Shown here piece by piece: positions 27,642 to 44,995 of a stretch of DNA of 49,635 nt. Each line of letters begins with the position of its first letter. The first letter of the stretch is position 1. Position numbers and translations under genes: made by a program. Source of the stretch: Erysipelotrichaceae bacterium (GTDB lineage: Bacteria > Bacillota_I > Bacilli_A > ML615J-28 > CAG-313); NCBI GenBank assembly GCA_015059015.1, contig SVBG01000002.1:1-49635 (forward strand). Reading direction: 5' to 3'. Under the pieces are notes generated by a model. That model was not told the origin of the DNA and made no database searches. It worked only from the letters and a program-made list of their open reading frames with translations.

Positions 27642-28002
27642 GGGTCTGTAATTGGTTTCGACAGATTAGTTATGGTTGAGTAAGCATACCGTGGGCAGGC
27701 ACGTTAAAACCTTAGGTTTTAAATAAACGGAAATACAAATTATTCTTTCGCTTGCTAGTTAGCTAAGCGACCCTGTTTTACAGGTTAACTCATATATTTC
27801 TTTGTCTGTGAGGGATATATGGGTCAAATAGCAGACTTTGATGATTAGGACAGCTTGACCTATGATTCGAGATTTAGAGCTGGTAAATTATTAGTTTTGT
27901 TTATTTTCTAATAATTTATAAGACCAAATTAATAAACTAAGTATGTAGAAAGCGAAATTTGCGCTAGTTTGGACACGAGTTCGACTCTCGTCAGATCCAC
28001 CA
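27642..28002 (+). ncRNA. ssrA: transfer-messenger RNA (tmRNA)
   Basis: 361 nt. The tRNA-like ends pair as GGGTCTG / CAGATCC, discriminator A, encoded CCA; the T arm is GAG-TTCGACT-CTC and the D-like part has the typical TTGGTTTCGACA. The tag frame begins at 27729 with GGA and reads GNTNYSFAC, then TAG at 27756-27758 within a hairpin (CGCTT...AAGCG). tmRNA with SmpB rescues stalled ribosomes and tags proteins for proteolysis. The tag ends in Ala-Cys, not the common Ala-Ala. The 3' end is a classic site for island integration. Confidence 0.95.
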
Positions 28003-28015
28003 ACATTACACGTGT

Positions 28016-28046
28016 CCGCTTTACTGAAAGGTAAGGCGGTTTTTTA
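28016..28046 (+). terminator. terminator of the tmRNA gene
   Basis: Stem CCGCTTTAC / GTAAGGCGG with one T-G pair, a 6-base loop and seven Ts. Confidence 0.9.
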
Positions 28047-28052
28047 AATTAA

Positions 28053-28081
28053 TTGATAAAAATGTGAATGTATGATACAAT
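28053..28081 (+). promoter_or_regulatory. promoter of the restriction-modification pair
   Basis: TTGATA (28053-28058), 17-bp spacer, TACAAT (28076-28081) with an extended TG upstream of the -10 box. About 50 bases before the endonuclease start. Confidence 0.7.
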
Positions 28082-28129
28082 AAAGAAAAAATGTAAATTA
28101 TTAATTATATTAGATATACGAGGAAATAT

Positions 28130-28894
28130 ATGAACTATAAAGATTTTGAATTTAAAGTACCAGTAGAATCAGTTTCATACTTAGAGGATTCTAATTTTGT
28201 ATTAGAAATGATAAAATTAATTTTAAGAGATAGATGTCAAAGTGATAATAATAAAATTATAATTAACACCAATTTAAAAAAAGGATTACCGCTAGAAAAT
28301 ATAAATAAAATAGCTGGTCCTATGGTCGAAGCTTGGTGTTGTGAAGTTTTCTCTTCTATTGTTGAATCTGGAAATATTAAATATAATTTAATTAATGCTG
28401 AAGCGCAAACAAGATTAGGACTTGCAGATGTTATACTTCAATTTAGTAAAAATGAAAATTATCTTACAGCCAATGTAGATGTTAAAGCTACTTCTGAAGA
28501 CATTGAAAGTTCAGGTCAGATGCCAAATATTACGTCTTTTAGCCGTATAAGAACAGCTTATGTAGATGATCCAGATTTTATGTTTGTTATATTAAGTATA
28601 AAACATAAAGTATATTCAGTTAAAAATAAAAAAACTAATTTAGTTGATGGTATAATGGAAATAGTAGACTATAATGCTTATGATTTAAAACTTATTGGAG
28701 AAAATGATTTTATATATAATCCTGCATTGGGAACAGGACAAATACAAATAAAAGATATTCATTACGTAAATTATTTTAAAAGAACAACTTGGGAGTTTTG
28801 TCAATTATTAGATAAAAAGTATTTACATAGTTCCAAAAGGAATATTGATGATTGGTATAGAGAGGCGATAAAGAATGGGTGGATTAAAAATTAA
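28130..28894 (+). CDS. putative type II restriction endonuclease
   Basis: 254 aa. No close family is recognised, but a PD-(D/E)xK arrangement can be traced: E67 (MVEAW), D100 (GLADVILQF) and D117-x-K119 (ANVDVKAT). The 20-base overlap with the DNA methyltransferase downstream is the usual layout of a type II restriction-modification pair. The neighbourhood directly after tmRNA and the AT-rich codons fit horizontal transfer. Recognition site unknown. The restriction role rests on context plus these residues. GAGGAAAT precedes the ATG. Confidence 0.72.
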   Translation: MNYKDFEFKVPVESVSYLEDSNFVLEMIKLILRDRCQSDNNKIIINTNLKKGLPLENINKIAGPMVEAWCCEVFSSIVESGNIKYNLINAEAQTRLGLADVILQFSKNENYLTANVDVKATSEDIESSGQMPNITSFSRIRTAYVDDPDFMFVILSIKHKVYSVKNKKTNLVDGIMEIVDYNAYDLKLIGENDFIYNPALGTGQIQIKDIHYVNYFKRTTWEFCQLLDKKYLHSSKRNIDDWYREAIKNGWIKN

Positions 28895-29864
28895 TGAAAT
28901 TATTGTAGGTGATGCTATCCACGAATTGAGGAAATTACCTGATAAATCTATTGATTTAATAGTTACGGATCCTCCTTATAATTTAAAAAAAGATTATGGG
29001 GATACAAAAGATAATTTAGAATTTAATGAATATTTAGAATTTTCTAGAAAATGGTTAAAAGAATGTAAAAGGGTATTAAAAGATGATGGAACAATATATG
29101 TATTTATGGGAATGAGATTCATTTCATACATATATAGAATTCTTGAAATTGAATTAGATATGAAATTTTGTAGTTGGATTACATGGTATTATACGCAAGG
29201 TATTGGTAAAACCAAAGGATTTAGTCCTCGTCATGATGATATTTTAATGTTTACAAAAACAAAAAAATATAAATTTAATTTGGATGATATAAGAATCCCT
29301 CAAAAATATTATAGAAGTGTTAATAATATGAGAGGTGCTAATCCTGGAAATGTATGGGAATTTTCACATATACACTATTGTAACTCTAATAGAATGAAAC
29401 ATCCGACACAAAAACCTGAAGGTCTATATGAAAGAATAATTTTAGCGTCATCAAATCCTGGAGACATTGTACTTGATCCTTTTATGGGAAGTGGGACATG
29501 TGCTAGAGTATGTCAACAATTACAAAGAAATTGGTTAGGATTTGAAATTAATAATGAATATGCTAATTTAATAGAAACAAGATTAAAACAACCATTTAAA
29601 GGTTTTGATAGTATAGATGAAAAAATATTGAGAGTGCCTAATGATTTAAATGATTTAGATTATAGAAAAGAGTATATTAATAATCATATTAAATGGTTTT
29701 TAAAAAACCATCAAGATTGTATTCCAAAGTTTATTGAGAATGTTAAACAAAAATATGGTGATGATTATTGTGTTAAATTAAAAACAAAAAAACAAAAAAA
29801 CTTATCAAAACAAACGCCAAATTTGTTTAATTATTCATCTTTAGAAGAAAATACTGATTCTTAA
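28875..29864 (+). CDS. DNA methyltransferase, beta class (N6-adenine or N4-cytosine)
   Basis: 329 aa. Catalytic motif IV TDPPYNL is near the N terminus (D32-Y35) and the SAM motif I DPFMGSGTCARV lies at about 203-214, followed by FEINNEY; that order with an internal target domain defines the beta class. KHPTQKPEGLYERI is also typical. The DPPY form favours N6-adenine methylation, but this is not proven. AGAGAGG lies before ATG 28875, inside the end of the endonuclease gene, so the two are co-translated. It should protect the host from the adjacent endonuclease. Confidence 0.92.
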   Translation: MGGLKINEIIVGDAIHELRKLPDKSIDLIVTDPPYNLKKDYGDTKDNLEFNEYLEFSRKWLKECKRVLKDDGTIYVFMGMRFISYIYRILEIELDMKFCSWITWYYTQGIGKTKGFSPRHDDILMFTKTKKYKFNLDDIRIPQKYYRSVNNMRGANPGNVWEFSHIHYCNSNRMKHPTQKPEGLYERIILASSNPGDIVLDPFMGSGTCARVCQQLQRNWLGFEINNEYANLIETRLKQPFKGFDSIDEKILRVPNDLNDLDYRKEYINNHIKWFLKNHQDCIPKFIENVKQKYGDDYCVKLKTKKQKNLSKQTPNLFNYSSLEENTDS

Positions 29865-29928
29865 TGTGATTAAATTATCACATAATATTTTTCAAATTTC
29901 ATGAACCTTATCTCGGATCTATAGTTAA

Positions 29929-29963
29929 AAAATCCTGTAAAATTAATATTTTATAGGATTTTA
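29929..29963 (+). terminator. terminator after the methyltransferase gene
   Basis: Stem AATCCTGTAAAAT / ATTTTATAGGATT (one G-T pair) with A-rich and T-rich flanks. Its sequence resembles the hairpins at 32188 and 33762. Confidence 0.72.
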
Positions 29964-30041
29964 ATTTTATATTTCTAATAAAAATTAATGATTCAATATG
30001 ATTAGGTTAAATAAAAAAATATTTTAATATAGGAGAAATTA

Positions 30042-30914
30042 ATGGTTTTAAGAATAATTCAAGGTAAACAAGGTTTTGTTTTTGGTGGGCCTAAAGAAAC
30101 AATTTTAGCAATAGACATAAAAAATATAACTTATAAGATACAAATTAAACAACTTTTTCAAAGGGAAATTATTATTACTTCTTCTATCAATAACGATTAT
30201 AAAGATCTTTATTCAGTTTATTATTCTCTAGAATCATTATTGATGCTATTTGATGGACAATTTTATTCAGTATCTCATGTTTTTGATGAATCTAATGAAA
30301 TAACGGAAAGTTGGATAAAAAGAACTTTATCAAGTAGATCTTCTGCTGATTTTATGATTGGTAAATATAATAAATTAATTGATTTTGCTGAAGTTTTAAA
30401 TGCTAATATATTATTAAAATGGATAGGTATTGAATATGATTTAGATATTGTTAATAATATGATTCAATATTGTTTATCTAGTGTTAAAATGCCTAAGGAT
30501 ATGCAACTAGCATTTATGGTTGAATCTTTCATTCCAATTTGTGAATTGGTTTTTCATAAAAATTCATGGAAATTGCCTTCTGTAAAAAAAGGGGAATCAA
30601 AACTTAAAAAATTTTTACTAGAAATGATAAATCGTTATGGAAAAACTATATTTCAAAAAGAATTACAAATTGGAATAAATATTTTTTCTCAAAAGTTAGT
30701 AAATTCAAGAAATAGAATAAGTCATATCAAAACAAAGAGTAAAAAAGATTATATTAAAGGCAAGGAAAATGTATATTATTTGATGAAATTGTCTTTATTG
30801 TATCGAGTAATATTATTTGAAATTCTTGGTATTGAGAAAAATAAGTATGAGTTAAAATTAGATTCTATTATACAAACAATAGAACAAAGGTTTACAAAAA
30901 AATTTATATCTTAA
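30042..30914 (+). CDS. ApeA-like HEPN domain protein, probable antiviral RNase
   Basis: 290 aa. The C-terminal helical half matches the HEPN_Apea type: SRNRISHIK gives R223-x4-H228, the HEPN catalytic motif, followed by helices YYLMKLSLLYRVILFEILGI. The N-terminal ~80 residues are beta-rich with YSLESLLMLFDGQFY, resembling the ApeA N-domain. HEPN proteins of this type act in phage defence as RNases that stop growth after infection. It is shorter than most ApeA proteins (400 or more). It lies next to a restriction-modification pair downstream of tmRNA, in a likely defence island. AGGAGAAA precedes the start. Family call is by eye. Confidence 0.68.
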   Translation: MVLRIIQGKQGFVFGGPKETILAIDIKNITYKIQIKQLFQREIIITSSINNDYKDLYSVYYSLESLLMLFDGQFYSVSHVFDESNEITESWIKRTLSSRSSADFMIGKYNKLIDFAEVLNANILLKWIGIEYDLDIVNNMIQYCLSSVKMPKDMQLAFMVESFIPICELVFHKNSWKLPSVKKGESKLKKFLLEMINRYGKTIFQKELQIGINIFSQKLVNSRNRISHIKTKSKKDYIKGKENVYYLMKLSLLYRVILFEILGIEKNKYELKLDSIIQTIEQRFTKKFIS

Positions 30915-30920
30915 AAGTGT

Positions 30921-30954
30921 AAAACACCCTAGTTTAAAATAGGATGTTTTAAAA
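30921..30954 (+). terminator. terminator after the HEPN gene
   Basis: Stem AAAACA-CCTA / TAGG-TGTTTT with one C-A mismatch and an 8-base loop, close to the stop codon. Confidence 0.7.
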
Positions 30955-31062
30955 TTATTTAGAAATATATATGTGTGGTATAATTAGACATAATATTTAA
31001 TCGAATAGAAAAATGATAATGGTATTGAAACTATGAAATTTCACGCAAGGAGAATAAAAATG

Positions 31063-31527
31063 GTAAAGACTAAAATAACATATGATCAAAAATTTGAAAG
31101 TAAATTTTTAATGACTTTCGTTATTTCTATATCTACAATTGTCATAATAGGAGTGTCAATATATTGTATTTCCGAACAAATATATAAAGACGATATCACT
31201 TCATTTTTAACTTTATTGTTTATTTCTATTATTTTATCGTTCTTCGCTTTTATTCCGTGTATTATTATAGAAAGATATAAATTTATAATTGATTTAGATA
31301 ATCAAATATTAATTTTTCGTGATTATTTCAAAAGAACTGTCCATTGTGATTTGAATGATATTAAAATTCGAAGAAAATTTGTATGTAATTTTTATGGAGA
31401 TAGTGCTTATCCAGAATATAAGGTATATATATATTGTAAAGGCAAGAAGTTGTGCACAATAAGTTCAAGTGACTTCGAAAATAAAACAAAAGAAAGTTTA
31501 TTCGCCATTTTTAAAGAAAATATATGA
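31063..31527 (+). CDS. two-segment membrane protein, unknown
   Basis: 154 aa from ATG 31063, chosen because CAAGGAG lies 8 bases before it; an in-frame ATG at 31033 has no binding site. Two hydrophobic segments (about 13-33 and 42-64) are followed by a soluble ~90-residue tail resembling bacterial PH-like membrane proteins (YKFIIDLDNQILIFRDYF, then CDLNDIKI). No family is named with confidence. It lies directly before the next small gene and belongs to the accessory stretch after tmRNA. Confidence 0.65.
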   Translation, partial: VKTKITYDQKFESKFLMTFVISISTIVIIGVSIYCISEQIYKDDITSFLTLLFISIILSFFAFIPCIIIERYKFIIDLDNQILIFRDYFKRTVHCDLNDIKIRRKFVCNFYGDSAYPEYKVYIYCKGKKLCTISSSDFENKTKESLFAIFKENI

Positions 31528-31539
31528 TTGAGGATGTTT

Positions 31540-32079
31540 ATGTACTTTTTTAAAAGAAGAAAAAAAGAATTAGAATATATTGAAAGGATAAATAGTATTA
31601 TTGAAGGTACTGAATATCAAGTAGCAGTATTTAAAATATATTATAAAGCATTTGGAAATGTTTTATTAAAACTAGTTGCTAAAGGTAATAAAAACATAAA
31701 AATAGTTACTGATAGAGGAGATATATTTTTAAACACTAAGCCAATATTCTTTGATGAAAAAATAAAAGCTTCTAAAGATGTGACTGAAAAAGTATTTGAA
31801 ATTTTATCATTAGTAATAAATATTATTAAAACTGATGACTGGAGATTAACCGGACAAGAAGATTATTTACTGTTTGCTAAATTAAAAGAGATTATTCCAA
31901 GTGATTATTTAAAAACATTAGATAATCCAAAATATTTTCATGAACACTGCGAATTTTGTATGACAAAGCCAGAAGATAATAAAGAACAAAAATTCTATTG
32001 TACATTAGACAATTATCGCTGGATTTGTGAAGAATGTTATAATGACTTTAAAGAAAAGTTTAAGTTTAATAATCAATAA
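31540..32079 (+). CDS. unknown protein with a C-terminal zinc-finger-like motif
   Basis: 179 aa. ATG 31540 is preferred, with GAGG six bases before; earlier TTG and ATG codons are too close to or within the site. Residues about 120-170 carry CEFC ... FYC ... WICEEC, two C-x2-C pairs plus nearby His residues, which would form a zinc finger. The rest is not recognised. It starts 12 bases after the membrane-protein gene, so the two are likely co-transcribed. No function can be given. Confidence 0.65.
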   Translation: MYFFKRRKKELEYIERINSIIEGTEYQVAVFKIYYKAFGNVLLKLVAKGNKNIKIVTDRGDIFLNTKPIFFDEKIKASKDVTEKVFEILSLVINIIKTDDWRLTGQEDYLLFAKLKEIIPSDYLKTLDNPKYFHEHCEFCMTKPEDNKEQKFYCTLDNYRWICEECYNDFKEKFKFNNQ

Positions 32080-32187
32080 TGTTGAAGTGATATTAGCTTA
32101 TATATCGAAAATATGAAATTTCATAGTGCGGAAATGAATTTTCCAATTTTTCGTACAATGCTAAAACAATCCCGTTTCAATAGTTTA

Positions 32188-32221
32188 AAAATCCCGTAAA
32201 ATTTAAAAATTACGGGATTTT
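32188..32221 (+). terminator. hairpin in module copy 1
   Basis: Perfect 12-bp stem AAAATCCCGTAA / TTACGGGATTTT with a 10-base loop; the T-rich end makes it a likely terminator for the gene ending at 32079. Confidence 0.8.
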
Positions 32222-32290
32222 ATTGATTTTTTAAGGTTCCGGACACAGGTATCGTAGGGTACGCCCCTAGTCCACCAATAATATGCTAGT

Positions 32291-32320
32291 CTGGTTTGTT
32301 GAAAAAACAAGCCAGTTTTT
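32291..32320 (+). terminator. second hairpin in module copy 1
   Basis: Ten-bp stem CTGGTTTGTT / AACAAGCCAG (one T-G pair) with a 5-base loop and five Ts, placed after CCACCA as the real terminator is after the tmRNA gene. Confidence 0.82.
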
Positions 32321-32458
32321 AATTTTGTAGTAAATTTTTCTGTAGTATGGTATAATTAATCATAGGACTTAGTGAGAAAAAAATTTAAAATAGAATTGGC
32401 ACTATGAAAATTCATAGTATTTACATAATTTTGATTAATTGTTAGGAAGTGATTTTGA

Positions 32459-33235
32459 TTGAGTAAATATAAAGATTTTGAAACAGCATTGTCATTTTTA
32501 TTAGATTATGGATTTGAGTATTGTAGCGACATTAATAATCGCAAATGCTATAAAAATGAATATGGCGAATTAATGCTATATTGGAAAATGATAGATTATG
32601 ATTACGGTGTACCAAAACTTTTAATTAAAACAAATTATAATGAAAGCATTATTGATGTTGATAAAGAATATCTTAATTTAGGTAAAAAAAGAACTATTGG
32701 TTTTTATGATATGCTTTATTATGTAATAAAAGCAGAAATTGAAACTAATTACAAAATATTTAATTTAAACATAAACATTAAAAATATCGAAAAGATGAAA
32801 CAAGTATATACTTATGAATACTCGTATGATAAAGAATATATATTTAATAAACTTAAAAAAGCAAATGATTATAGAATTGTAATTAAAGATGAGTATAGGT
32901 TTATGATAGGTTTAGAGGCTACTCACTCTGGTGGTTTTTGGTATGTTGCCAATATAGAAGAGGTTGAGAATAAACAAACAATATTTGGACAAATAATTCA
33001 TAATCCTGATGAAGATGGAAAACCTAGGAAAGTAGAGTATAAAACAAAAGACAAAATAAAAGATGGATTAATCATTGCGGTTATGTTTATTATATTATGG
33101 TGGCTTTTATTGATTATTTGGATTTGTGGAAGTATATATTCATTATTTACTAAAAAGAAAGAAGAACTTACTAAAGAGCAAAAATTAGATAAATTTATGA
33201 CAGAATATTTATGTTGTAAAAAGAAAGAGGACTAA
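32459..33235 (+). CDS. unknown protein with a C-terminal membrane segment
   Basis: 258 aa from a TTG start at 32459, with TAGGAAGTG about 7 bases before it; no ATG fits better. The first ~200 residues are soluble-looking and Tyr/Lys-rich; a hydrophobic stretch at about 204-228 (LIIAVMFIILWWLLLIIWIC) precedes a charged tail with a final CC pair. No domain recognised. It follows module copy 1 and precedes its neighbour by 3 bases, so it forms an operon with the 140-aa protein gene. Confidence 0.65.
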   Translation: MSKYKDFETALSFLLDYGFEYCSDINNRKCYKNEYGELMLYWKMIDYDYGVPKLLIKTNYNESIIDVDKEYLNLGKKRTIGFYDMLYYVIKAEIETNYKIFNLNINIKNIEKMKQVYTYEYSYDKEYIFNKLKKANDYRIVIKDEYRFMIGLEATHSGGFWYVANIEEVENKQTIFGQIIHNPDEDGKPRKVEYKTKDKIKDGLIIAVMFIILWWLLLIIWICGSIYSLFTKKKEELTKEQKLDKFMTEYLCCKKKED

Positions 33236-33238
33236 AAA

Positions 33239-33661
33239 ATGATTAAATCCTTTGTAGATAACTTTATTAAAGATATATATAAAGAACGTATTCTATTTGA
33301 ATTAAGTTCTAATAAACCTAATAAAAGAGAAAAAGCATTTACTAAATTATTAGATTATAAAGAATACTTTAATTCAGATATAGAAAAAATTGATTTAACT
33401 CACTTAATGGATGAAGAAATATTAAAAGTAATTCATACAAAGTATAATGTAAAAGAGTGTTATAGCTTAAAATTTGATAAAAAATTTCAATTAGAAAAAG
33501 CAGTTATAAATACAATAAATAGTTATATGTTAGATATTTTAATTATTGATGAGGAAAATATAATATATATTGGTGAAGTAGGAGACCATAATGAAGGTGG
33601 AATAGCTTCTGTAAAATTTATTGCACATATATTGGGAAATAAAAATGGAGGTTGCAATTAA
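33239..33661 (+). CDS. unknown 140-aa protein, paralogue 1
   Basis: 140 aa, no signal or membrane segment. It is about half identical to the 131-aa protein at 33998-34393 along its length: both share FIKD-YKERIL-ELSS-KP, the KIDL-HL block and INTINSYMLDIL followed by IYIGEV. I recall similar small proteins of unknown function in other bacteria, often in variable regions; an immunity-like role is possible but not shown. Module copy 2 follows it directly. Confidence 0.7.
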   Translation: MIKSFVDNFIKDIYKERILFELSSNKPNKREKAFTKLLDYKEYFNSDIEKIDLTHLMDEEILKVIHTKYNVKECYSLKFDKKFQLEKAVINTINSYMLDILIIDEENIIYIGEVGDHNEGGIASVKFIAHILGNKNGGCN

Positions 33662-33761
33662 AACTCATATGTAGTTATTTGCCGTATATTAAATTTTAAG
33701 ATGCGAAATGTAATTTTCCGATTTTCCGTGTTTTGCTAAAGCAATCCCGTTCAATAGTTTA

Positions 33762-33795
33762 AAAATCCCGTAAAATTCAAAAATTACGGGATTTT
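33762..33795 (+). terminator. hairpin in module copy 2
   Basis: Perfect 12-bp stem AAAATCCCGTAA / TTACGGGATTTT, the same as in copy 1, ~100 bases after the stop of paralogue 1. Confidence 0.8.
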
Positions 33796-33864
33796 ATTGA
33801 TTTTTTAAGGTTTTGGACACGGGTATCGTAGGGTACGCCCCTAGTCCACCAATAATATGCTAGT

Positions 33865-33894
33865 CTGGTTTGTTGAAAAAACAAGCCAGTTTTT
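33865..33894 (+). terminator. second hairpin in module copy 2
   Basis: Stem CTGGTTTGTT / AACAAGCCAG with a T run, identical to copy 1. Confidence 0.82.
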
Positions 33895-33997
33895 AATTTT
33901 GTAGTAAATTTTAGATATATGTGTTATAATTAAGTACAGTATTTACTTGATTACAATTCGTTAATATTTATATAGTTAGAATATTAGGGAGAATAAA

Positions 33998-34393
33998 ATG
34001 GAAAAAATTTTTGTAGAAAAATTTATTAAAGATAAATATAAAGAAAGAATTTTATATGAATTAAGTTCAAAGAAACCGGATAAAAAAGAAAAAGTATTTA
34101 CAAAGTTACTAGAATATGATGAATATTTAAGAAATGATGTATCTAAGATTGATTTATCACATTTAACAGACGAGGAAATTGTGAGTGTTATTAGTAATCG
34201 TTTTAAAAATAAATATTGTTATAGTTTGAAATTTAATTGTAAAGTAGAGCTTGTTAAAGGTGTAATAAATACTATAAATAGTTATATGCTTGATATTTTA
34301 GTGATTGATGAAAATAATATTATATATATTGGCGAAGTTGAACATCATAAAGATGGAGGAAACGCTTCTGTAAAGTATATATTTTATACATAA
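33998..34393 (+). CDS. unknown 131-aa protein, paralogue 2
   Basis: 131 aa, paralogue of the protein at 33239-33661 (shared FIKDKYKERILYELSS, KIDLSHL, INTINSYMLDIL and IYIGEVEHHKDGG). It ends earlier, at SVKYIFYT, where paralogue 1 continues with FIAHILG, so its C terminus may be slightly truncated. GGGAG precedes the ATG. Preceded by module copy 2 and a TATAAT-type box near 33925. Function unknown. Confidence 0.7.
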   Translation: MEKIFVEKFIKDKYKERILYELSSKKPDKKEKVFTKLLEYDEYLRNDVSKIDLSHLTDEEIVSVISNRFKNKYCYSLKFNCKVELVKGVINTINSYMLDILVIDENNIIYIGEVEHHKDGGNASVKYIFYT

Positions 34394-34914: not shown

Positions 34915-37900
34915 ATGAGAAAATTATTTTGGATTATTGTTGTAGTATTTTTATTTATATTATCAGGTTGTGATAATTTTAATGGAAATCCAATAGTGAA
35001 TCAGCAATTATTTGATGAATTAACTTCAAAAGTAAATGAGTTTTCTGCTAAAATTGAAGAGAGTGATTACTTAAGTGTGGGTTTAAGAGTAGAACTAAAT
35101 AATGATAGAGTATCATCATTAATTAGTTGTGCTAAAGATCCGGCTTATATAGAGATTACAACTGGTACTGAAAAAGAAATTTATACACAAGAAGGCGATA
35201 AAGTATTTAAATATACTAAACTTAATACATCCACTTATGATAGAGATTTTTATTGTTATATATCAGATTTTGAAAACGATGAAGCAAACAATGATGTGCA
35301 AAATAGTGGTGATTATTATATCACTGAATTTAATAACGAAAAAATAAATGTTACAGTAAATGATAATATATATACACTGAAATGTAAATACAAAGATGCG
35401 TTAAATAAGGAAAGTAAAGAAATACTAGAAGATATTTATGAGTCACTGAATTTACCTATTGACATTTTATTTAATTCAGATTTAACTATAACATACACTA
35501 TAAAAGAAGAAAAAGTGAAAATGGATTTAGAAGTTGTTATTGAATATGAGGAATTTCCAGAACCTCTTGATTTAAAATTTACAGTAGAAATAGATATAAT
35601 GAAGTTTACGCCTAAAAATATGTTAGGTGGAGAATTTAAATTATCTGCACCTGATTGTTTTGAAGAAGTTTATAAAACATATGATTATAAAGAAGTGTTA
35701 AAACTTGATGCGTATAAAAAGACGTATTTAAGAATTGATGCTAAAAAAGGAATGCTAGTTTCAAATGAGAGAGGTTTAAAATTAGAATTATATGATGAAA
35801 ACTATAATTTAATTGGTGAATCATTAGGTAATATAGATTCATCAACATATATATCTATTAACTCGCTTTTATCAATTGAAGAAGATGGTACTTATTATGT
35901 AGTTGTTACAAATAGAAATCATGATACAACAAAATTTACTTTATCGCAGTATGAATATGATACAACCACAACATCCGAAGGTATAGATATATCTAATCCA
36001 ATTTCATTAGAAGGTACTATTGAAGGTAAATATGATATAGAAAAGCTAGTATATACAAATACTGATTCTACTGATAAGTCAGTCAGAATAGAAAACTTAG
36101 GTAATGAAGATATATTAATTTGTAAAATTCTAGATAGTAATAAAGTACTTATAGCAAGTAATACAGTAAAATTTATAACTATTAAACCTAATCAAGCAAA
36201 TTATATTACATTACAATCAGGTTTAAATGAATTGTTTATTTGTGAGCAATTTGATTTAACTGATGACGCAAATGGATATGACTATAATATTAAATTAAAT
36301 ATTATTGATTTTTCCATAAGTGATAATACGATTGAGGCGCCAATTCCAAGTGAATTTAATATGGATGCTCACAGTGATATATATTATTATTCGTATGTAG
36401 AAAAAGGGTTATATAGTTTTAGTGATGTAAATATATTTGGAAGTCGTCTAGAAGTAAAAGTATTTGATAAAGATGGCAAAAAAGTAAATGCAAACGTTGT
36501 TGAATATGGAAAATGGTTAGATGATTTTTCTAGAAATTATATAATTAAAGAAGATGGATGGTATTTTATAGGTGTTAGAAGTTATAGTTCAGAAAGTGGT
36601 ACAGTAATTCATCAAAAATATGATTATGAAACAATTGGTGATAAAAATAATCCAACATTTATTGATATAACAAGAGACATTACTTATGAAGGTGTATTAG
36701 AAGGGCATCATGATTTTGAATATTATCAATTAGAAAATAGATCTAATGAATTAAAAGTTTATTATATTGAAAATACATCAGAACAGTATTATAGAGTTAT
36801 TTTAAAAGAGTATCCTACATCTAATCCTAATATGATTAACTTTAATCCAGGTGATAAAATATGTTTTTCAAGCCAACCTGGTAGTTTTGAAATAATGATT
36901 GTTGAAAATGATTATTTAAATGCTGATACTACTTTAGAATATAAGTTTATTGTAAAAGAATTAGAAAATAATAATGTAACAGATAAGAATTCAAATAATT
37001 TACCAATACTTTCATTAGAATTTACTGATAAATACTATATAGCAGGTTTAACACTACCTAAAATGTATATGAAGTTAGTAGTTAAAGAAAAAGGTGCAAT
37101 AAGATTTCAATATTTAGATTACTTTACTAATAATGTTTTAAAATATGGATTCTCTTACTTTATATATGACGCATCAGGTAATAGAATATATAATGAAATT
37201 TTAGAACCAGGTGAATATATAGTTGAATTTAGTTATTCAGAAAGTGTATTACTTTATGCTAAAGTAAAATATACATTTCATTCAGCATTGGATCAAACAT
37301 ATGAAGTAGAATTAAAAGAATTAGACGATACATGTAATGATTATAAATATTCGTACATATATAGCGAAAAAGTACTAAGTACTCAATTTTTAAAGTACTA
37401 TTTTACACTGGAAGAAAAAACTACAATTTTGTATCATTCGTTAGAAGTTCAAATATTTGATGAATTTGATAATATACAAGTGTTAGTCCCAAATGGTAGT
37501 TGGTCATACGTAGCAAGATATTTATATGTAGATTTAGAACCAGGTAGATATTACTTCACAATCCCTGGAATTGATGCTGATCCGAGTGGAACATACAAGA
37601 TACCTATTCCAATTGGAATTAAAAATGTAAATAGAGATAATCCACAAGACTTTATAAATATGAACGAACTAAAATTAGATGAAGTAATACAAGTTAAACA
37701 AGATTTTGAAAATGACTTTGAATTTTTAAAATTTACAGTTTCTGAAACTTCTTATTACGAATTTAAAGGATATTATGTTAATGTATATATATACTCTTCT
37801 GTTAAAAGAATGTGTGCTCAAATTATACCATGGTCAGATAAAGAGGTTTACTTAAAAGAAGGAACATATTATATTGTTCTTGAACATCATTATGAAGAAG

Positions 37901-37935
37901 AAAATATTGGGGAAATAAAAGTTATTAAAAAATAA
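34915..37935 (+). CDS. large surface lipoprotein of unknown function
   Basis: 1006 aa. Signal peptide with lipobox FILSGC (Cys 19), so anchored to the outer face of the membrane. After residue ~240, several similar beta-sandwich-like stretches follow, each with patterns such as EDGTYYVVVTNRN, EDGWYFIGVRSYS and EPGRYYFTIPG, which resemble bacterial pre-peptidase C-terminal (PPC-like) domains; about five or six copies are suggested. No catalytic motif is visible. AGAAGGAG precedes the ATG. It stands alone between the decayed gene and the GDPD lipoprotein. An adhesion or binding role is inference. Confidence 0.72.
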   Translation: MRKLFWIIVVVFLFILSGCDNFNGNPIVNQQLFDELTSKVNEFSAKIEESDYLSVGLRVELNNDRVSSLISCAKDPAYIEITTGTEKEIYTQEGDKVFKYTKLNTSTYDRDFYCYISDFENDEANNDVQNSGDYYITEFNNEKINVTVNDNIYTLKCKYKDALNKESKEILEDIYESLNLPIDILFNSDLTITYTIKEEKVKMDLEVVIEYEEFPEPLDLKFTVEIDIMKFTPKNMLGGEFKLSAPDCFEEVYKTYDYKEVLKLDAYKKTYLRIDAKKGMLVSNERGLKLELYDENYNLIGESLGNIDSSTYISINSLLSIEEDGTYYVVVTNRNHDTTKFTLSQYEYDTTTTSEGIDISNPISLEGTIEGKYDIEKLVYTNTDSTDKSVRIENLGNEDILICKILDSNKVLIASNTVKFITIKPNQANYITLQSGLNELFICEQFDLTDDANGYDYNIKLNIIDFSISDNTIEAPIPSEFNMDAHSDIYYYSYVEKGLYSFSDVNIFGSRLEVKVFDKDGKKVNANVVEYGKWLDDFSRNYIIKEDGWYFIGVRSYSSESGTVIHQKYDYETIGDKNNPTFIDITRDITYEGVLEGHHDFEYYQLENRSNELKVYYIENTSEQYYRVILKEYPTSNPNMINFNPGDKICFSSQPGSFEIMIVENDYLNADTTLEYKFIVKELENNNVTDKNSNNLPILSLEFTDKYYIAGLTLPKMYMKLVVKEKGAIRFQYLDYFTNNVLKYGFSYFIYDASGNRIYNEILEPGEYIVEFSYSESVLLYAKVKYTFHSALDQTYEVELKELDDTCNDYKYSYIYSEKVLSTQFLKYYFTLEEKTTILYHSLEVQIFDEFDNIQVLVPNGSWSYVARYLYVDLEPGRYYFTIPGIDADPSGTYKIPIPIGIKNVNRDNPQDFINMNELKLDEVIQVKQDFENDFEFLKFTVSETSYYEFKGYYVNVYIYSSVKRMCAQIIPWSDKEVYLKEGTYYIVLEHHYEEENIGEIKVIKK

Positions 37936-38061
37936 AAGATGTTCTTATATATCTTATATTTTTAGAAACGTTTTTTATAAAATTTTAAGTATCATTAAAT
38001 TAAAATATATATATTTTTTAAGTAATATATGTATATTTAGTCTTGAGAAAATATAATTGAT

Positions 38062-38098
38062 GCCACTTTATTTATATGTAAAGTGGCCTGTTATTTTT
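38062..38098 (+). terminator. hairpin after the 1006-aa lipoprotein gene
   Basis: Perfect 9-bp stem GCCACTTTA / TAAAGTGGC with an 8-base loop, then a T-rich tail broken by CTG. About 125 bases past the stop. Confidence 0.65.
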
Positions 38099-38211
38099 AA
38101 TTTTACTTAAATATCTTCTAATTTATTAAAAATATTATAATTTTTAGACAATAACAAAAAAAAGTATTGTATAATGATATTGGAAGAAAAGTACAAAGGA
38201 GAACGAATAAC

Positions 38212-41200
38212 ATGAAAAAAACTTTGTTAGTTTTTATTTTAGTGTTTGCAGCTATTTTTATGATAAGTTGTAAAGGTAAAAATGGTTGTAATAATAAAAC
38301 ACCAGTTCATGAACATATTGCATGTGCTGAATGTGGTAAATGTACAGATCCAGATTGTGATGGCGAAGATTCTGATAAATGTCTAGGACACGAACCAATT
38401 CATGAACATATTGCGTGTCCAGACTGTGGTAAATGTACAGACCCTGAATGTGATGGAGAAGATGTAGATAAATGTCTTGGACATGAACCAAAGCATGAAC
38501 ACATTGCGTGTCCAGACTGTGGAAAATGTACAGACCCTGAGTGTGATGGAAAAGAAAGTGATAAATGTCTAGGACACGAACCAATTCATGAACATATTGC
38601 GTGTCCAGACTGTGGTAAATGTACAGACCCTGAATGTGATGGAGAAGATGTAGATAAATGTCTTGGACATGAACCAAAGCATGAACACATTGCGTGTCCA
38701 GACTGTGGAAAATGTACAGACCCTGAGTGTGATGGAAAAGAAAGTGATAAATGTTTAGGACATGAACCAAAGCATGAACATACAGCATGTGCTGAATGCG
38801 GAAAATGTACAGACCCAGAATGTGATGGAGAAGATGTAGATAAATGCTTAGGTCATGAACCAAAGCATGAACACATATCTTGTCCAGACTGTGGAAAATG
38901 TACAGACCCTGAATGTGATGGAGAAGATGTAGATAAATGTTTAGGTCATGAACCAAAGCATGAACATACAGTATGTGCTGGATGTGGAAAATGTACAGAC
39001 CCTGAATGTGATGGAGAAGATGTAGATAAATGTCTTGGACATGAACCAAAGCATGAACACATTGCGTGTCCAGACTGTGGAAAATGTACAGACCCAGAAT
39101 GTGATGGAGAAGATTCTGATAAATGTCTAGGTCATGAACCAATTCATGAACACATATCTTGTCCAGACTGTGGTAAATGTACAGACCCTGAGTGTGATGG
39201 AGAAGAAAGTGATAAATGTCTTGGACATGATAAAGTTGCTCCTGTTATTGAACTTGTAGATGGAGCAAGTGAAGAGTTAAAGTTAAATTGGAATAAAGAA
39301 GCTACTAATGAATTCTTATTAAGTGGCATTACTGCAACAGATGATGTTGATGGTGATTTAACTAATAATATAACAGTTTATCATGAAATTAATAATCGTA
39401 AATATGGTACATATGTAGTTACTTATGAAGTAAGTGATGAGGCTGGTAATACTGCTACATTTGAAAGAAATGTTACAGTTGTTTGGGATTATGCTGTAGA
39501 ATTTATTGGACATCAAGGTTCTTATTATGGTGTTGCTAACTCTGAAGAAGCATTCTTATATGCTGCTGAAACTTTACAGTATCAAGCACTTGAAACAGAT
39601 GTTAAGCAAACTAAAGATGGTGTGTTTGTATGTTGTCATGATGATACATTTGGTGGTTTAGCTATTGCAAGTACAAATTGGGAAGATTTAAAAGATGTTG
39701 TTGTAGATTCTAGTAGAACATCTGGCCTTCCTAGTCAATATGGTGAAATGCCTGGTACTGGTAAATATTCATCTAAAATTTGTACTCTTGAAAGATATTT
39801 AGAAATTTGTAAAGAATATGGTATTAAAGCTGTAGTAGAACTTAAAAGTTCTGCTGGTATTTCAAATAGTGATCAATCAAGAATGCCTGCTTTAATGGCA
39901 TTAATTGAAAAAACTGGCATGCTTGATCAAACTATCTTTTTAGCAAGTGCATATAATTGTTTAATATGGGTTAAACAAAATGGTTATGATTATATTCCTT
40001 GTCAATATTTAGTATCATCATTTGCATCTGAAACAGTATTTGAAAGATGTAAAGAATATGGACTTGATGTTAGTGGCTGTGTTACTTATGGTGATGGTCA
40101 AACAGAAAATACACCTGAATGGGTAGCAAGATATCAAGATGCTGGAATTAAAGTTTCAACTTATACATTTACACAATATAGTGATTATAGTGATGTACAA
40201 AAATGGATTGATATCGGTGTTGATTATGTTACAGTAGACTGGCAAAGTATGCATAAATTAAACTTACCTGATAATAGTGACATTGTATATCATACAGTTA
40301 AATTCTATGATCATGAAAATAATTTATTAAAAGAAACTAAAGTTAGAAGTGGTAGAGCTGCTGCTTCTCCTATTGCACCAAAGCGAGAGGGTTATGAATT
40401 TAGTGGTTGGAGTAAATGTATTGAAAATGTAACAGAGGATTTAAGTGTTACAGCAGAATATGAACTTGTTGAATATTCAATTACTTATGATTCTAATCTA
40501 TATGTATTAACTAAATCACAATGGGCTTCAAAAGAAGATTTTGTTAATGATTTTTATAATGATTTATTTGATTGGTTGGTTGCAAATGCATCTCATTTAT
40601 CATGTGTTACAGTAAATAATGGTAGTTATAAGATTTATGTAAACTCTACTGAATATGGAAGTTGTACAGTATCAAGTGCTCAAGATATTAAAGATTTATA
40701 TGTTTATACATTTGAACGTACATTTGCGACTTTAATTTATAAACCAATTAATGGTTCTAACTCACATGATTATGTTCCTGAAGTTGATAATAATTACTTC
40801 TTAAATTCAGAACCTTATCGTACTAAATACATTGGATGTAACTCATATTTCTTAAAAGCTATGGAAACTTCATATACAGGTTATAGTTATACATTTAAAC
40901 AAGCATCTAATAACCGTGTTCAAATCTTCTTTAGATTCCATCAATGGTGTAATGGTACAAGTATTGCAGCATTTAATGCATATCCTGAAAAGAATATGAT
41001 TAAATATTTAGTTGGAGTTGATGCTATAATGCCTACTGATTATGTTAAATATACAATTAACGATGAAATTATTTTATCTGCACCTACTGCTTCTATAGAG
41101 TTTTTAGGGTGGTATTTAGATCACGATGCTACAGGTGAGGCTGTTACTAAGATTGAAAAAGGAACAACTGGTGATATTATTCTTTATGCTAAATGGGAAG

Positions 41201-42054
41201 AAGTTGTAGTTCCAGATGTATATTCTAAAGTTAATTATGTATTAGACGGTGGAACTAATAGTGAAAATAATCCTACTGAATATTTAGAAGGTATTTCAAC
41301 TCTTCTTTATCCTGCTGAAAAAGCTGGTTATGTATTTAAAGGTTGGTCTAAAGAACAAGGTAGTAATTCATATATTACTTCTATCAGTGAATTAACAAGT
41401 GGTGAAATTACACTTTATGCTAATTATGAATATGCTGTCTATAAAATTACTTATGATTTACAAGGTGGAGATTGGGGTAACAAAGCTGAATTTACAGGAA
41501 AACCTGTTACTTCAATTACTACTAACAGAAAAGATGACTTCTGGTCTGGAACAAATTATGTTAGTTATATATATTTAGATCATGTTAGTACATATCCTAA
41601 AGCAACTTGGTCATTTAGAGTTGGTATTGCGTATGATGAATCAATGGGTATCTATGTTGTTAAGTCAGTTGCTGATCAAAATAAATCATTTGATGCAGAT
41701 ATTTGTGAATATGTAGTTACAATTTCTGGTTCATATGGACAATATGGTTCAACACAAGACTTTAGAAACGCAGTACAAGTTGGTCAAGGCGTTAAAATTA
41801 CAGGTGACGTAGATTCAGGTAATGCAACATTAGAATTCTATGATGCATCAGGAATGACTGGTGGTACAATTGAAAATTATGTTGTTGAATACACTATTGT
41901 AACACTTCCTTCAGTTCTACCTATTCCTCAAAAAGAAGGTAAAGTATTTGTTGGATGGGCACTATCTGCAACATCTTCTGAACCATTTACACAACTTCCT
42001 CAAGGTACTATGGGTGATGTAACATTATATGCAATATTTGCAGATGCTAATTAG
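38212..42054 (+). CDS. GDPD-domain lipoprotein with ten Cys-rich repeats and InlB-type repeats
   Basis: 1280 aa from ATG 38212, with AAAGGAG before it (the upstream frame extension lacks one). Lipobox FMISC (Cys about 21). Residues ~33-341: ten 31-residue repeats, HEHIACPDCGKCTDPECDG with a KCLGHEP end, each with five Cys and three His. Then an Ig-like DUF5011-type domain (ITATDDVDGDLT), a glycerophosphodiester phosphodiesterase domain (~425-690: FIGHQGSYYG, ALETDVKQTKDG, CCHDDT, AVVELKS), and three or four Listeria-Bacteroides (InlB B) repeats such as REGYEFSGWSK. The usual HRG motif is HQG here. It should act outside the cell; substrate unproven. Confidence 0.85.
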   Translation: MKKTLLVFILVFAAIFMISCKGKNGCNNKTPVHEHIACAECGKCTDPDCDGEDSDKCLGHEPIHEHIACPDCGKCTDPECDGEDVDKCLGHEPKHEHIACPDCGKCTDPECDGKESDKCLGHEPIHEHIACPDCGKCTDPECDGEDVDKCLGHEPKHEHIACPDCGKCTDPECDGKESDKCLGHEPKHEHTACAECGKCTDPECDGEDVDKCLGHEPKHEHISCPDCGKCTDPECDGEDVDKCLGHEPKHEHTVCAGCGKCTDPECDGEDVDKCLGHEPKHEHIACPDCGKCTDPECDGEDSDKCLGHEPIHEHISCPDCGKCTDPECDGEESDKCLGHDKVAPVIELVDGASEELKLNWNKEATNEFLLSGITATDDVDGDLTNNITVYHEINNRKYGTYVVTYEVSDEAGNTATFERNVTVVWDYAVEFIGHQGSYYGVANSEEAFLYAAETLQYQALETDVKQTKDGVFVCCHDDTFGGLAIASTNWEDLKDVVVDSSRTSGLPSQYGEMPGTGKYSSKICTLERYLEICKEYGIKAVVELKSSAGISNSDQSRMPALMALIEKTGMLDQTIFLASAYNCLIWVKQNGYDYIPCQYLVSSFASETVFERCKEYGLDVSGCVTYGDGQTENTPEWVARYQDAGIKVSTYTFTQYSDYSDVQKWIDIGVDYVTVDWQSMHKLNLPDNSDIVYHTVKFYDHENNLLKETKVRSGRAAASPIAPKREGYEFSGWSKCIENVTEDLSVTAEYELVEYSITYDSNLYVLTKSQWASKEDFVNDFYNDLFDWLVANASHLSCVTVNNGSYKIYVNSTEYGSCTVSSAQDIKDLYVYTFERTFATLIYKPINGSNSHDYVPEVDNNYFLNSEPYRTKYIGCNSYFLKAMETSYTGYSYTFKQASNNRVQIFFRFHQWCNGTSIAAFNAYPEKNMIKYLVGVDAIMPTDYVKYTINDEIILSAPTASIEFLGWYLDHDATGEAVTKIEKGTTGDIILYAKWEEVVVPDVYSKVNYVLDGGTNSENNPTEYLEGISTLLYPAEKAGYVFKGWSKEQGSNSYITSISELTSGEITLYANYEYAVYKITYDLQGGDWGNKAEFTGKPVTSITTNRKDDFWSGTNYVSYIYLDHVSTYPKATWSFRVGIAYDESMGIYVVKSVADQNKSFDADICEYVVTISGSYGQYGSTQDFRNAVQVGQGVKITGDVDSGNATLEFYDASGMTGGTIENYVVEYTIVTLPSVLPIPQKEGKVFVGWALSATSSEPFTQLPQGTMGDVTLYAIFADAN
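38308..39235 (+). repeat. ten tandem 93-bp coding repeats
   Basis: Ten in-frame 93-bp units encoding the Cys/His-rich repeat of the GDPD lipoprotein. Units 2-3 (from 38401) and 4-5 (from 38587) are a 186-bp higher-order duplication, identical for at least the first 165 bp. This points to recent expansion. Confidence 0.95.
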
Positions 42055-42219: not shown

Positions 42220-43521
42220 ATGAAAAAAGATTTAAAAACAAAACTTATAAGTAGAAAAATTAAAAAACCCAATCCATTTTTAATGTTTATAACAATGAGG
42301 TTACTAGGAATTCTTAATAGAAAATATAAAGTAAAATTTAATTATGATTATGATATTAAGTCTTTAAAAGACAGTCCTACAATATTACTTGCATCACATG
42401 CATCAAGATTAGAATTTATATATATGATATATGGATTTAAGCATAATGATATAAATATAGTATGTGGATATCAAAACATTATTAAAAAAGGATTATATAA
42501 TTTATTTATAAAATTAGGGGTAATTTCTAAATATTTATATCAGCCAGACATTGTTTGTATGAAAAACATTATGAAGGTATTAAAACATAATGGAACTGTT
42601 GGGATTTTTCCAGAAGGTATACAATCAACTAGTGGAAGTACTCATCCTATTAACCCTGCAACTGTTCAATTTATTAAAAAGAGTAAAGCAAATATTGTTG
42701 TAGCTACATCAAAAGGTGCTTATCTTGCAACACCACGTTATACAAATGATAGAAAAAAAGGTTATATTGAAATAAACTTTAGTAAAGTTTTAACTTCTGA
42801 TATGTTAGAAAAATTAAGTGATGAACAAATTTATAAAATATTAATAGATAAAATTAGTTATAATGATTTTGAATATAATAAAGTACAAAGAAATAAATAT
42901 ATAGGTAAAAAGCCAAATGCTTTTGGAATTGATAAAATCCTTTATAAATGTCCAGATTGTAAGAGTGAATATACTTTATATACACAAGATGACACAATTG
43001 TATGTAAACATTGTGGATTAAAAATAAAAGTTAATGAATATTATGATTTAGTTAAAGTAAAATGTAATAAATTACCAACCGATATTGATAAGTGGTATAA
43101 ATGGCAAAGAAATTGTGTTAAAGAAGAAATTATAAGTGATTCATTTGAATTATTTCTTAGTGGATCTATTTGTACGTTAAAAACAGATAAATTAAGAAAA
43201 TCACCTAAAAATAGAGAAGTTTTATCAATCGGTAGAGCTATTCTTAATAATAAAGGATTAAATTTTATTGGAAAATTAAATGATGAAATTGTTAATTTTA
43301 ATTTCGATGCAAAAACAATTTATTCTTTAACAGTTTCAACAAAAGGTTATTTAGAATTTTATGCAGGTAATAACTATTATATGCTAATTCCAGAAGATAA
43401 AAATCAATGTTTAATTAAATGGACTCTAGCATCAGAAGAAATTCATAATCTTTATGATGAAAAATGGAGATCTGCATGTATAGATGTATATGAATATAGT
43501 AAAGGAGACATATATGAGTAA
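42220..43521 (+). CDS. PlsC-like acyltransferase with a C-terminal zinc ribbon
   Basis: 433 aa. Residues ~50-200 form an LPLAT/PlsC acyltransferase: the catalytic block reads LASHASRLEF, i.e. H-x4-E where H-x4-D is usual, and the acceptor-binding block is GIFPEGIQST. A zinc ribbon follows at ~245-270 (YKCPDCKSEY ... VCKHCGLKI), then a ~150-residue domain not recognised. PlsC enzymes acylate lysophosphatidic acid or other glycerolipids at the membrane; here the added ribbon and domain suggest a different acceptor. It overlaps the YfcC-type transporter gene by 8 bases. Confidence 0.82.
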   Translation: MKKDLKTKLISRKIKKPNPFLMFITMRLLGILNRKYKVKFNYDYDIKSLKDSPTILLASHASRLEFIYMIYGFKHNDINIVCGYQNIIKKGLYNLFIKLGVISKYLYQPDIVCMKNIMKVLKHNGTVGIFPEGIQSTSGSTHPINPATVQFIKKSKANIVVATSKGAYLATPRYTNDRKKGYIEINFSKVLTSDMLEKLSDEQIYKILIDKISYNDFEYNKVQRNKYIGKKPNAFGIDKILYKCPDCKSEYTLYTQDDTIVCKHCGLKIKVNEYYDLVKVKCNKLPTDIDKWYKWQRNCVKEEIISDSFELFLSGSICTLKTDKLRKSPKNREVLSIGRAILNNKGLNFIGKLNDEIVNFNFDAKTIYSLTVSTKGYLEFYAGNNYYMLIPEDKNQCLIKWTLASEEIHNLYDEKWRSACIDVYEYSKGDIYE

Positions 43522-44995
43522 ATCTGATAAATTAAATGTAAAAGTAAAAATAGGACTTAAAAGTTTTATCACGGTTATTGCAATACTAATATTAGTACTT
43601 GTTTTTGTAGGTATTTTAACATATGTAATACCTGCAGGTAGATATACAATATATACAACAGATGCATCTAAAATAGGAGAACCTTTTTATCAATATACAA
43701 CAGATGAATCTTTAAATAAGCAAATTGTTATAGATTCATATCGTGTGTTAACAAATGCTGAAAATACATCACGTATACCATTTTACAGATGGTTAATTTC
43801 TCCAATTGAGGCTTTATTATTTGGTAGTAGTAGTTCTAATATGATTATGATTATTGCATTATTATTAGTGCTTGGTGGAACATTTAAAGTATTAGAAACA
43901 AGTGGTGGTCTTGTATCTTTAGTTAGAGTGATAATGGAAAGACTTAAATCTAAACGTTTTGCAGCCATATGGGCAATTACTGCTGTTATAATGGTTTTAT
44001 CTGCTGTATTTGGATTACAAGAACAATTACTTATTTTATTCCCGATTTTTGCAATGCTATGTACTGTGCTTAATTGGTCTAATTTTACCGCCATATCATT
44101 TATTTTAATTGCATCAGGTGTAGGGTTTACAACTGCAATTACAAATCCTTTAACTATAGGTACAGCATCCCTTGCTGCTGGTGTAAATGTAACAGATGGA
44201 ATGTGGTATAGATGTATAATCTTTGGTGTTATGTATGTTATTACTTCAATGTTTTTAGTTTATCTTGCTAAAAAAGATGAAAAGAAGGCTGTTGAAAAAT
44301 TTGATTCTGAAGAATTTATTATGGTATCAGAAGAAGAGCATAAAGAAGATATTAAAAAATCTAAGATGATTATCACACTTTTTTCAATTGCACTTCTTTC
44401 TGTTATTATTACCACATCAATTAAATCTTTAAGATCACTCGCCATGGTTTTTATGGCAGTTGCGTTTATTGTAGGTACAGTAATTATTGGTAGAATATTA
44501 CTTGGTTCGTATAAAAATTTATTTAAGAATTTTTTAAAGGGTGTTGTAGATGTTCTTCCTTCAATATTAATAATTATGATTGCATTTGGTATTACATATA
44601 TTGCAGAACAAGGAAACATACTTCATACAATATTCTATTACTTCTATAACTCAGTAACAAATATGTCGCCATATTTAGCTGTAATAATATTATATGTATT
44701 TGTACTTATTATTGAATTCTTTATTCCAAGTGCTTCTGCAAAAGCTGTATTAATCATTCCTATGTTAACACTTGCTCCAATAGATGGTATAAGTAAAACT
44801 GTTATTATTTTAACTTACCTTTTTGCAGATGGATATACTAATGTACTATATCCTACTTGTGGAACATTACTAGTAGGTCTTGGTCTTGCCAATGTAAGTT
44901 TTGCAGAATGGTTCAAAAAAACAATCTTATTCCAACTTCTATTAATGGTTCTATCAATTGGATTCTTAATGTTCGCAGTGTTTATTGGTCTATAA
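43514..44995 (+). CDS. YfcC/DcuC-type membrane transporter
   Basis: 493 aa from ATG 43514, which has AAAGGAG about 7 bases before; the longer frame begins inside the acyltransferase gene. About 11-12 membrane segments. Typical marks are the early LTYVIPAGRYT, the GFTTAITNPLTIGTASLAAGV half-site, and the C-terminal FFIPSASAKAVLIIPM plus PTCGTLLVGL. The family (C4-dicarboxylate anaerobic carrier, YfcC) includes amino-acid, dicarboxylate and related carriers, so the substrate is undecided. Coupled to the acyltransferase gene; a terminator follows. Confidence 0.88.
   Translation: MSKSDKLNVKVKIGLKSFITVIAILILVLVFVGILTYVIPAGRYTIYTTDASKIGEPFYQYTTDESLNKQIVIDSYRVLTNAENTSRIPFYRWLISPIEALLFGSSSSNMIMIIALLLVLGGTFKVLETSGGLVSLVRVIMERLKSKRFAAIWAITAVIMVLSAVFGLQEQLLILFPIFAMLCTVLNWSNFTAISFILIASGVGFTTAITNPLTIGTASLAAGVNVTDGMWYRCIIFGVMYVITSMFLVYLAKKDEKKAVEKFDSEEFIMVSEEEHKEDIKKSKMIITLFSIALLSVIITTSIKSLRSLAMVFMAVAFIVGTVIIGRILLGSYKNLFKNFLKGVVDVLPSILIIMIAFGITYIAEQGNILHTIFYYFYNSVTNMSPYLAVIILYVFVLIIEFFIPSASAKAVLIIPMLTLAPIDGISKTVIILTYLFADGYTNVLYPTCGTLLVGLGLANVSFAEWFKKTILFQLLLMVLSIGFLMFAVFIGL

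Follow-up and report, generated by a model that had tools for sequence, protein, structure and literature searches.

Arrays of small gene cassettes, probably accreted without their own integrase, at the 3' end of the tmRNA gene in an Erysipelotrichaceae bacterium and its relatives

The region downstream of the tmRNA gene (ssrA) in a 49,635-nucleotide stretch of the genome of an Erysipelotrichaceae bacterium (hereinafter, the window) and the corresponding regions of several related genomes contain arrays of small accessory genes delimited by recurrent junctions. We consider it likely that these arrays consist of integrase-less cassettes that accreted site-specifically at the 3' end of ssrA and were mobilized in trans, as opposed to being remnants of ordinary genomic islands. 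That the junctions are site-specific and anchored at ssrA we hold with high confidence. Since no recombinase was found in any of the arrays, the step from the arrays to active mobility is one that we infer.

The cassette array in the window and the structure of the junctions

Two nearly identical modules that a preliminary description of the window had placed at 32131-32338 and 33705-33911 are both present, with 94% identity; in a search of the 2.0 Mb genome, positions 12-219 of the first module query align to 33705-33912 (94%), and no full copy occurs beyond these two. The spacing between GGACAC and CCACCA had also been given correctly, namely, 25 nt in the modules and 20 nt in the tmRNA. Between 27600 and 34950, only three terminator-like sites were detected on both strands combined (shuffle mean, 1.1): the tmRNA terminator at 28016-28039 and the module hairpins at 32291-32315 and 33865-33889. 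The element exceeds the 207 bp originally named, as it also encompasses the tail of a cassette, about 150 bp long, which starts at about 32114 and 33688, and a promoter-bearing head that reaches 32356 and 33930, respectively. The features of the region are as follows.

27642-28002, + strand: ssrA (tmRNA) gene, the anchor of the array; acceptor stem GGGTCTG / CAGATCC
27992-28081, + strand: first cassette head, with CAGATCCACCA, terminator at 28016-28039 and -10 box at 28076-28081
28130-28894, + strand: type II restriction enzyme, 254 aa (PADLOC PDLC03492, E 6e-111)
28875-29864, + strand: N6/N4 DNA methyltransferase, 329 aa (PF01555, E 2e-71; PDLC03299)
30042-30914, + strand: ApeA-like HEPN protein, 290 aa (PF18739, E 6e-9)
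31033-31527, + strand: membrane-like protein, 164 aa (open reading frame; no family match)
31528-32079, + strand: 183-aa protein, 94% nucleotide identity to a G004 array gene
32114-32266, + strand: cassette tail, with a terminator-like hairpin at 32188-32221 and the 25-nt left end at 32242-32266
32267-32356, + strand: cassette head, with CTAGTCCACCA, terminator at 32291-32315 and -10 box at 32351-32356
32459-33235, + strand: 258-aa protein with a membrane segment (open reading frame; no significant family match)
33239-33661, + strand: 140-aa protein, no function assigned by family search
33688-33840, + strand: cassette tail, with a hairpin at 33762-33795 and the 25-nt left end at 33816-33840
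33841-33930, + strand: cassette head, with CTAGTCCACCA, terminator at 33865-33889 and -10 box at 33925-33930
33998-34393, + strand: 131-aa protein, with 67% identity to the 140-aa protein encoded in the preceding cassette
34915-42054, + strand: two large lipoprotein genes, LP1 (34915-37935) and LP2 (38167-42054)
42220-44995, + strand: acyltransferase and YfcC-like genes, the far flank of the island here, adjoining ssrA in G004

The last cassette, which encodes the 131-aa protein, has no recognized tail, and on its distal side, the window array lacks a recognizable closing junction. The variable region probably extends beyond 33911 because the gene at 42220 adjoins ssrA in the congeneric genome G004; its far limit is perhaps at 42054, and LP1 and LP2 possibly belong to it. 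LP2 contains many tandem short repeats (HEHIACPDCGKCTDPECDGE...), the number of which differs from that in G004. Inside the first unit, we observed weak matches to the tail hairpin of the module (29910-29963) and to the promoter stretch of the head (30973-31043); this 4.3-kb unit may consist of two or three fused cassettes.

Altogether, 26 junctions, tmRNA ends included, were read in five genomes. Each module is a recombination junction, the left half of which is the tail of one cassette and the right half the head of the next one. The heads start with CTAGTCCACCA or CAGATCCACCA, that is, the 3' strand of the tmRNA acceptor stem with the CCA, and the core common to the junctions is CWRRTCCACCA. 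In 22 of the 26 heads, a hairpin followed by a T run begins 8-14 nt after the CCA; these hairpins comprise 14 different stem sequences, so that the stem is kept while its sequence varies. An extended -10 box is found in 20 of the 26 heads, whereas shuffles yield 1.05; its usual position is 72 or 73 nt past the CCACCA, and two of the heads that lack it lie at the ends of arrays; given that a generic promoter scan of the window yielded no signal above chance, the assignment of the promoter rests on this conserved position. The left half usually contains a long hairpin followed by an end of a constant length of 25 nt (GACRCGGGTA...); three tails (positions 6208 and 14066 in G007 and 3562 in G004) retain a tmRNA-like T-arm instead. 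Some junctions (7597 in G004, 11131 and 18373 in G007) are decayed or half-missing. Approximately 21 units can be delimited, with a median length of about 1.5 kb.

The preliminary description had offered two readings of the modules. The first one, that they are diverged copies of the tmRNA 3' end, holds for the right half, with its acceptor strand, CCA and terminator, and fails for the left half, an element-specific fixed end without the tmRNA T-arm, which is also why the spacing is 25 nt as opposed to 20 nt. The second one, a mobile or cassette-bounding unit, comes closer to the hybrid tail-head junctions described here.

Distribution of the junctions and exchange of their halves

The arrays are present in 5 of the 15 genomes of the family that were analyzed: the genome that includes the window (G000), G004 from the same genus, G006, G007 and G011. 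The ruminant gut is the source of G004, G007 and G011 (recorded as 'Bacilli bacterium' from water deer, roe deer and goat gut isolates). Six other members of the family (G001, G002, G005, G010, G013 and G014) have ssrA and lack the modules. A search of 395 genomes of the class with a sequence model of the junction (R1) produced 24 strong matches (E up to 1e-6), all within the five array genomes, and in 22 cases, the match lies on the contig that carries ssrA, downstream of this gene and on the same strand. One of the remaining two is a full junction on contig 48 of G011; the other one is a head-like relic that follows a methionine-transporter-like operon on contig 19 of the same genome, away from ssrA (L151, reverse strand, near 5204-5139; G011:C19:19138-19213), in which the middle of the core is missing (TTGGACACTAGTCCAGCA). 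Such a search among relatives had been proposed in the preliminary description along with two outcomes that would speak against an ssrA-anchored island, namely, modules at many loci unrelated to ssrA and synteny of 28130-34393 conserved in all relatives; neither was found, and the region is not syntenic. A degenerate 36-nt pattern run against 84,980 species matched only G004, G007 and G011, in addition to one chance hit in coding DNA, and neither the module nor any of three core patterns matched phages, plasmids or IMG/VR. The five array genomes represent few events, and the junctions inside one genome are not independent.

Two observations concern tmRNA genes elsewhere in the family. In G006, a contig region (G006:C9:98000-114000, L093) that is probably a phage or a prophage in the assembly contains over 20 tRNA genes of diverse kinds along with an odd second tmRNA (84 bits). 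Another genome, G009, has two different tmRNA genes with differing tag peptides (L087 2-360, G009:C139; L088 195-556, G009:C137), the second of which is followed by large genes of an unrecognized kind.

Upstream of ssrA, the window and G004 are largely colinear (about 82%). Downstream of ssrA, G004 has the acyltransferase and YfcC genes followed by the array and two lipoprotein genes; in the window, ssrA is separated from the acyltransferase gene (42220) by the array together with both lipoprotein genes, the latter in the reverse order. The lipoprotein flank, which was considered for an empty-site comparison, occurs only in G000 and G004. The array differs between these two genomes in both content and position, supporting the accessory island anchored at ssrA that had been claimed originally, and the arrival of the cargo by successive insertions is borne out as well, with several insertions, as is the relationship of the module boundaries to the 3' end of the tmRNA. 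The acyltransferase-YfcC pair itself (42220-44995 in the window; L021 747-3524 of G004, in the array orientation; L022 11230-14029) is followed by a copy of the tmRNA T-arm in G004 and G007, a feature absent from the window; this pair may be old island cargo turned into a fixed neighbor.

The gene for the 183-aa protein is shared by the arrays of the window and G004, with 94% nucleotide identity and different neighbors. A RelB-RhuM cassette is 87.6% identical at the nucleotide level over 1.7 kb between G006 and G007, which belong to different genera and show identities of 80.3% for recA and 68% for xerD. These comparisons provide signs of exchange between species.

To characterize the junctions themselves, 75 bp on each side of the core were compared for all junction pairs, which are not independent of each other, with halves considered related at an identity of at least 0.75 and unrelated below 0.62 (shuffled background 0.51, maximum 0.61). 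Among the 26 junctions, there are 19 pairs with related left halves and unrelated right halves, and 35 pairs with the reverse relationship. The pattern is clear: left and right halves are exchanged independently of each other, and the breakpoint lies immediately 5' of the acceptor strand. The tmRNA itself is involved, as the left halves of the window and G004 tmRNAs are identical (1.00) and the sequences after the CCA differ (0.56), and the sequences behind ssrA in G006 and G011 are homologous to internal cassette heads of G004 and G007. Furthermore, the acceptor type (CTAGT or CAGAT) tracks the right half of the junction (permutation p 0.002) and not the left half (p 0.50), in a small sample with families assigned by hand, and therefore, the exchange maps just 5' of the acceptor 3' strand.

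The tmRNA acceptor stems are GGGTCTG/CAGATCC in G000, G004 and G007 and GGGCTAG/CTAGTCC in G006 and G011. In all five array genomes, the stem is still paired, the crossover falling inside the RNA gene and the gene being restored, and the head adjacent to ssrA is of the matching acceptor type; in the window, the first head is of the CAGAT type and the later ones are of the CTAGT type. The identity shared around the inferred crossover is very short, a pattern unlike that of a typical tyrosine recombinase, and may favor a serine recombinase or another mechanism.

Cargo, recombinases and the origin of the arrays

The cargo of the array in the window includes a type II restriction-modification pair, the ApeA-like HEPN protein and small proteins without an assigned function. 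The other arrays encode HipA-like and Fic proteins, RelB with Fic, RelB with RhuM, a zinc-protease-like protein and many small uncharacterized proteins that are often membrane-like. All recognized cargo genes are oriented as ssrA. Some of the genes have matches among the candidate families of PADLOC, which have the status of candidates and not of tested systems. The composition of the cargo suggests stocking of phage-defense and toxin-antitoxin genes.

The preliminary description saw no integrase, and a search of the island likewise found no integrase gene. In none of the arrays was a tyrosine recombinase (PF00589) or a large serine recombinase (PF07508) found, matches to both families being limited to other contigs, and ORF lists and family matches revealed no transfer genes in the arrays. 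Candidates encoded elsewhere in the genomes were examined and rejected. Two conserved tyrosine recombinases, XerC-like and XerD-like, are found both in array genomes and in genomes that lack arrays; the remaining integrases are not common to the array genomes, as far as these could be extracted; and, with respect to a CcrB/DsiB-like enzyme, large serine recombinases are encoded on other contigs with no junction sequence nearby, at RHS-tip loci in G000. At these loci (L144, G000:C3:226000-243000; L146; L152), genes for large serine recombinases are located beside short ORFs with a conserved RHS tip motif (RYYSPELCRFISPDD...NGLNLYCYCxNNP) and more tip ORFs come next, an arrangement that resembles a recombinase element for the exchange of RHS tips.

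In the scheme that we propose, a cassette would consist of a head, the cargo and a tail, and would be excised as a circle in which the tail meets the head, forming the attachment site of the element. A recombinase supplied in trans, by another element or a host gene, would then join this site to either ssrA or a junction already in place, the crossover falling immediately 5' of the acceptor 3' strand. The terminator of the incoming head would replace that of the tmRNA, and the head would also bring a promoter; the predicted outcome is a tmRNA with a 3' end that is still usable and cargo expressed from the promoter of its cassette. Further rounds of insertion would stack the cassettes head to tail in a single orientation. 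Weighing against this scheme are the lack of an identified recombinase, the decayed or incomplete junctions, the head-like relic away from ssrA in G011, the missing closing junction in the window, the shortness of the sequence shared at the crossover and the small number of genomes with arrays.

The main rival to trans-mobilized cassettes is the possibility that the arrays are remnants of ordinary tandem islands, each of which entered at ssrA with its own integrase, subsequently deleted, and which are now immobile. Dehalococcoides does have tandem islands at ssrA, some with an integration module and others lacking it, some of the junctions described here are decayed, and the three tails with a T-arm in G007 and G004 resemble classical island ends. 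Nevertheless, we regard this origin as unlikely, considering that about 21 units, with their small median size and conserved heads and tails, show no trace of an integrase, and that cassettes common to different genera are more similar than recA.

A second possibility is that homologous recombination among the repeated terminator-promoter modules, which offer 80-250 bp of homology and are near-identical inside a genome, shuffles the genes without any site-specific enzyme. Such exchange would place breakpoints anywhere in the module, whereas those detected cluster at the acceptor boundary, with the opposite halves at background identity, which makes this explanation decidedly improbable. An integron-like system, with a site recombined as a folded single strand, would fit the small cassettes in one orientation, the defense and toxin-antitoxin cargo and the GGAC/GTCC sequences that flank the core; however, the GGAC/GTCC pairing shows no covariation and is no better than in shuffles, there is no consensus fold, and no integron integrase is encoded beside the arrays, so that an integron attC site is rejected and a system of this type appears very hard to sustain. 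Finally, a regulatory repeat that merely resembles the tmRNA end would account for the terminator and promoter features of the head, but chance resemblance and a plain repeat can both be discarded as the sequences directly behind ssrA in G006 and G011 are module heads, the positions are confined to ssrA, and the halves are shuffled at the tmRNA boundary.

Relation to known mobile elements and implications

The closest published case of arrays comparable to these putative trans-mobilized cassettes is that of the ssrA islands of Dehalococcoides, which are arranged in tandem downstream of ssrA, bounded by 20-bp repeats of its 3' end, and carry strain-specific cargo; 15 of the 31 islands lack an integration module, and 16 possess one, including the CcrB-like DsiB; the vcr islands span about 12 kb, and the islands without a module have been proposed to be cis-mobilizable elements (McMurdie et al. 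2011, PMC3146451). The arrays described here share the tandem units downstream of ssrA and the 3'-end boundaries, and differ in that the units are about 1.5 kb long, the heads combine a standard terminator with a promoter, and no unit contains a recombinase; a counterpart of the CcrB-like DsiB next to attL, a feature of Dehalococcoides, was not found. The arrays also resemble CIMEs and accretion arrays in having att-like flanks at the unit ends, without an integrase or transfer genes, and in stacking in tandem at a single RNA gene. CIMEs have been discussed as moving together with an adjacent element, whereas no such neighbor was found here, and in contrast to CIMEs, the boundary and the promoter are standardized, in a cassette-like fashion.

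Integron cassette arrays consist of small cassettes with one or a few genes in one orientation and are rich in toxin-antitoxin or defense functions. Unlike integrons, the present arrays have neither an integrase nor a folded attC, most of the cassettes carry their own promoter, and an RNA gene serves as the anchor. Tycheposons and other tRNA-flanked elements insert at the 3' ends of small RNA genes, with short end repeats and cargo islands; all of these elements center on a tyrosine recombinase and on tRNA genes, whereas in the present arrays, only ssrA is used and no recombinase was found. In the literature searched, which was limited in extent, we found no description of such arrays.

A more far-reaching interpretation, which we put forward only tentatively and consider rather doubtful, is that the arrays represent a separate cassette-capture system, distinct from integrons, in which a trans-acting recombinase stacks promoter-bearing, terminator-insulated defense cassettes at the tmRNA gene and mediates their exchange across genera, with the tmRNA acceptor strand setting which cassettes can sit directly behind ssrA.

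The acceptor types of the arrays lead to a prediction on tmRNA compatibility, namely, that a tmRNA of the CAGAT type should bar cassettes of the CTAGT type from the first position behind it, and this holds in all three genomes with such a tmRNA. The features of the heads translate into a search pattern for other lineages: the acceptor strand, the CCA, a hairpin at +8 to +12 and a -10 box at +72 or +73.

For the biology of these bacteria, the arrays would mean that small defense genes can be stockpiled and exchanged without an integron, with the tmRNA gene serving as the dock, by means of self-contained cassettes that rebuild the 3' end of the dock, keep its transcription terminated and supply a promoter of their own. 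Many of the small uncharacterized proteins encoded in the cassettes are candidates for new defense functions.
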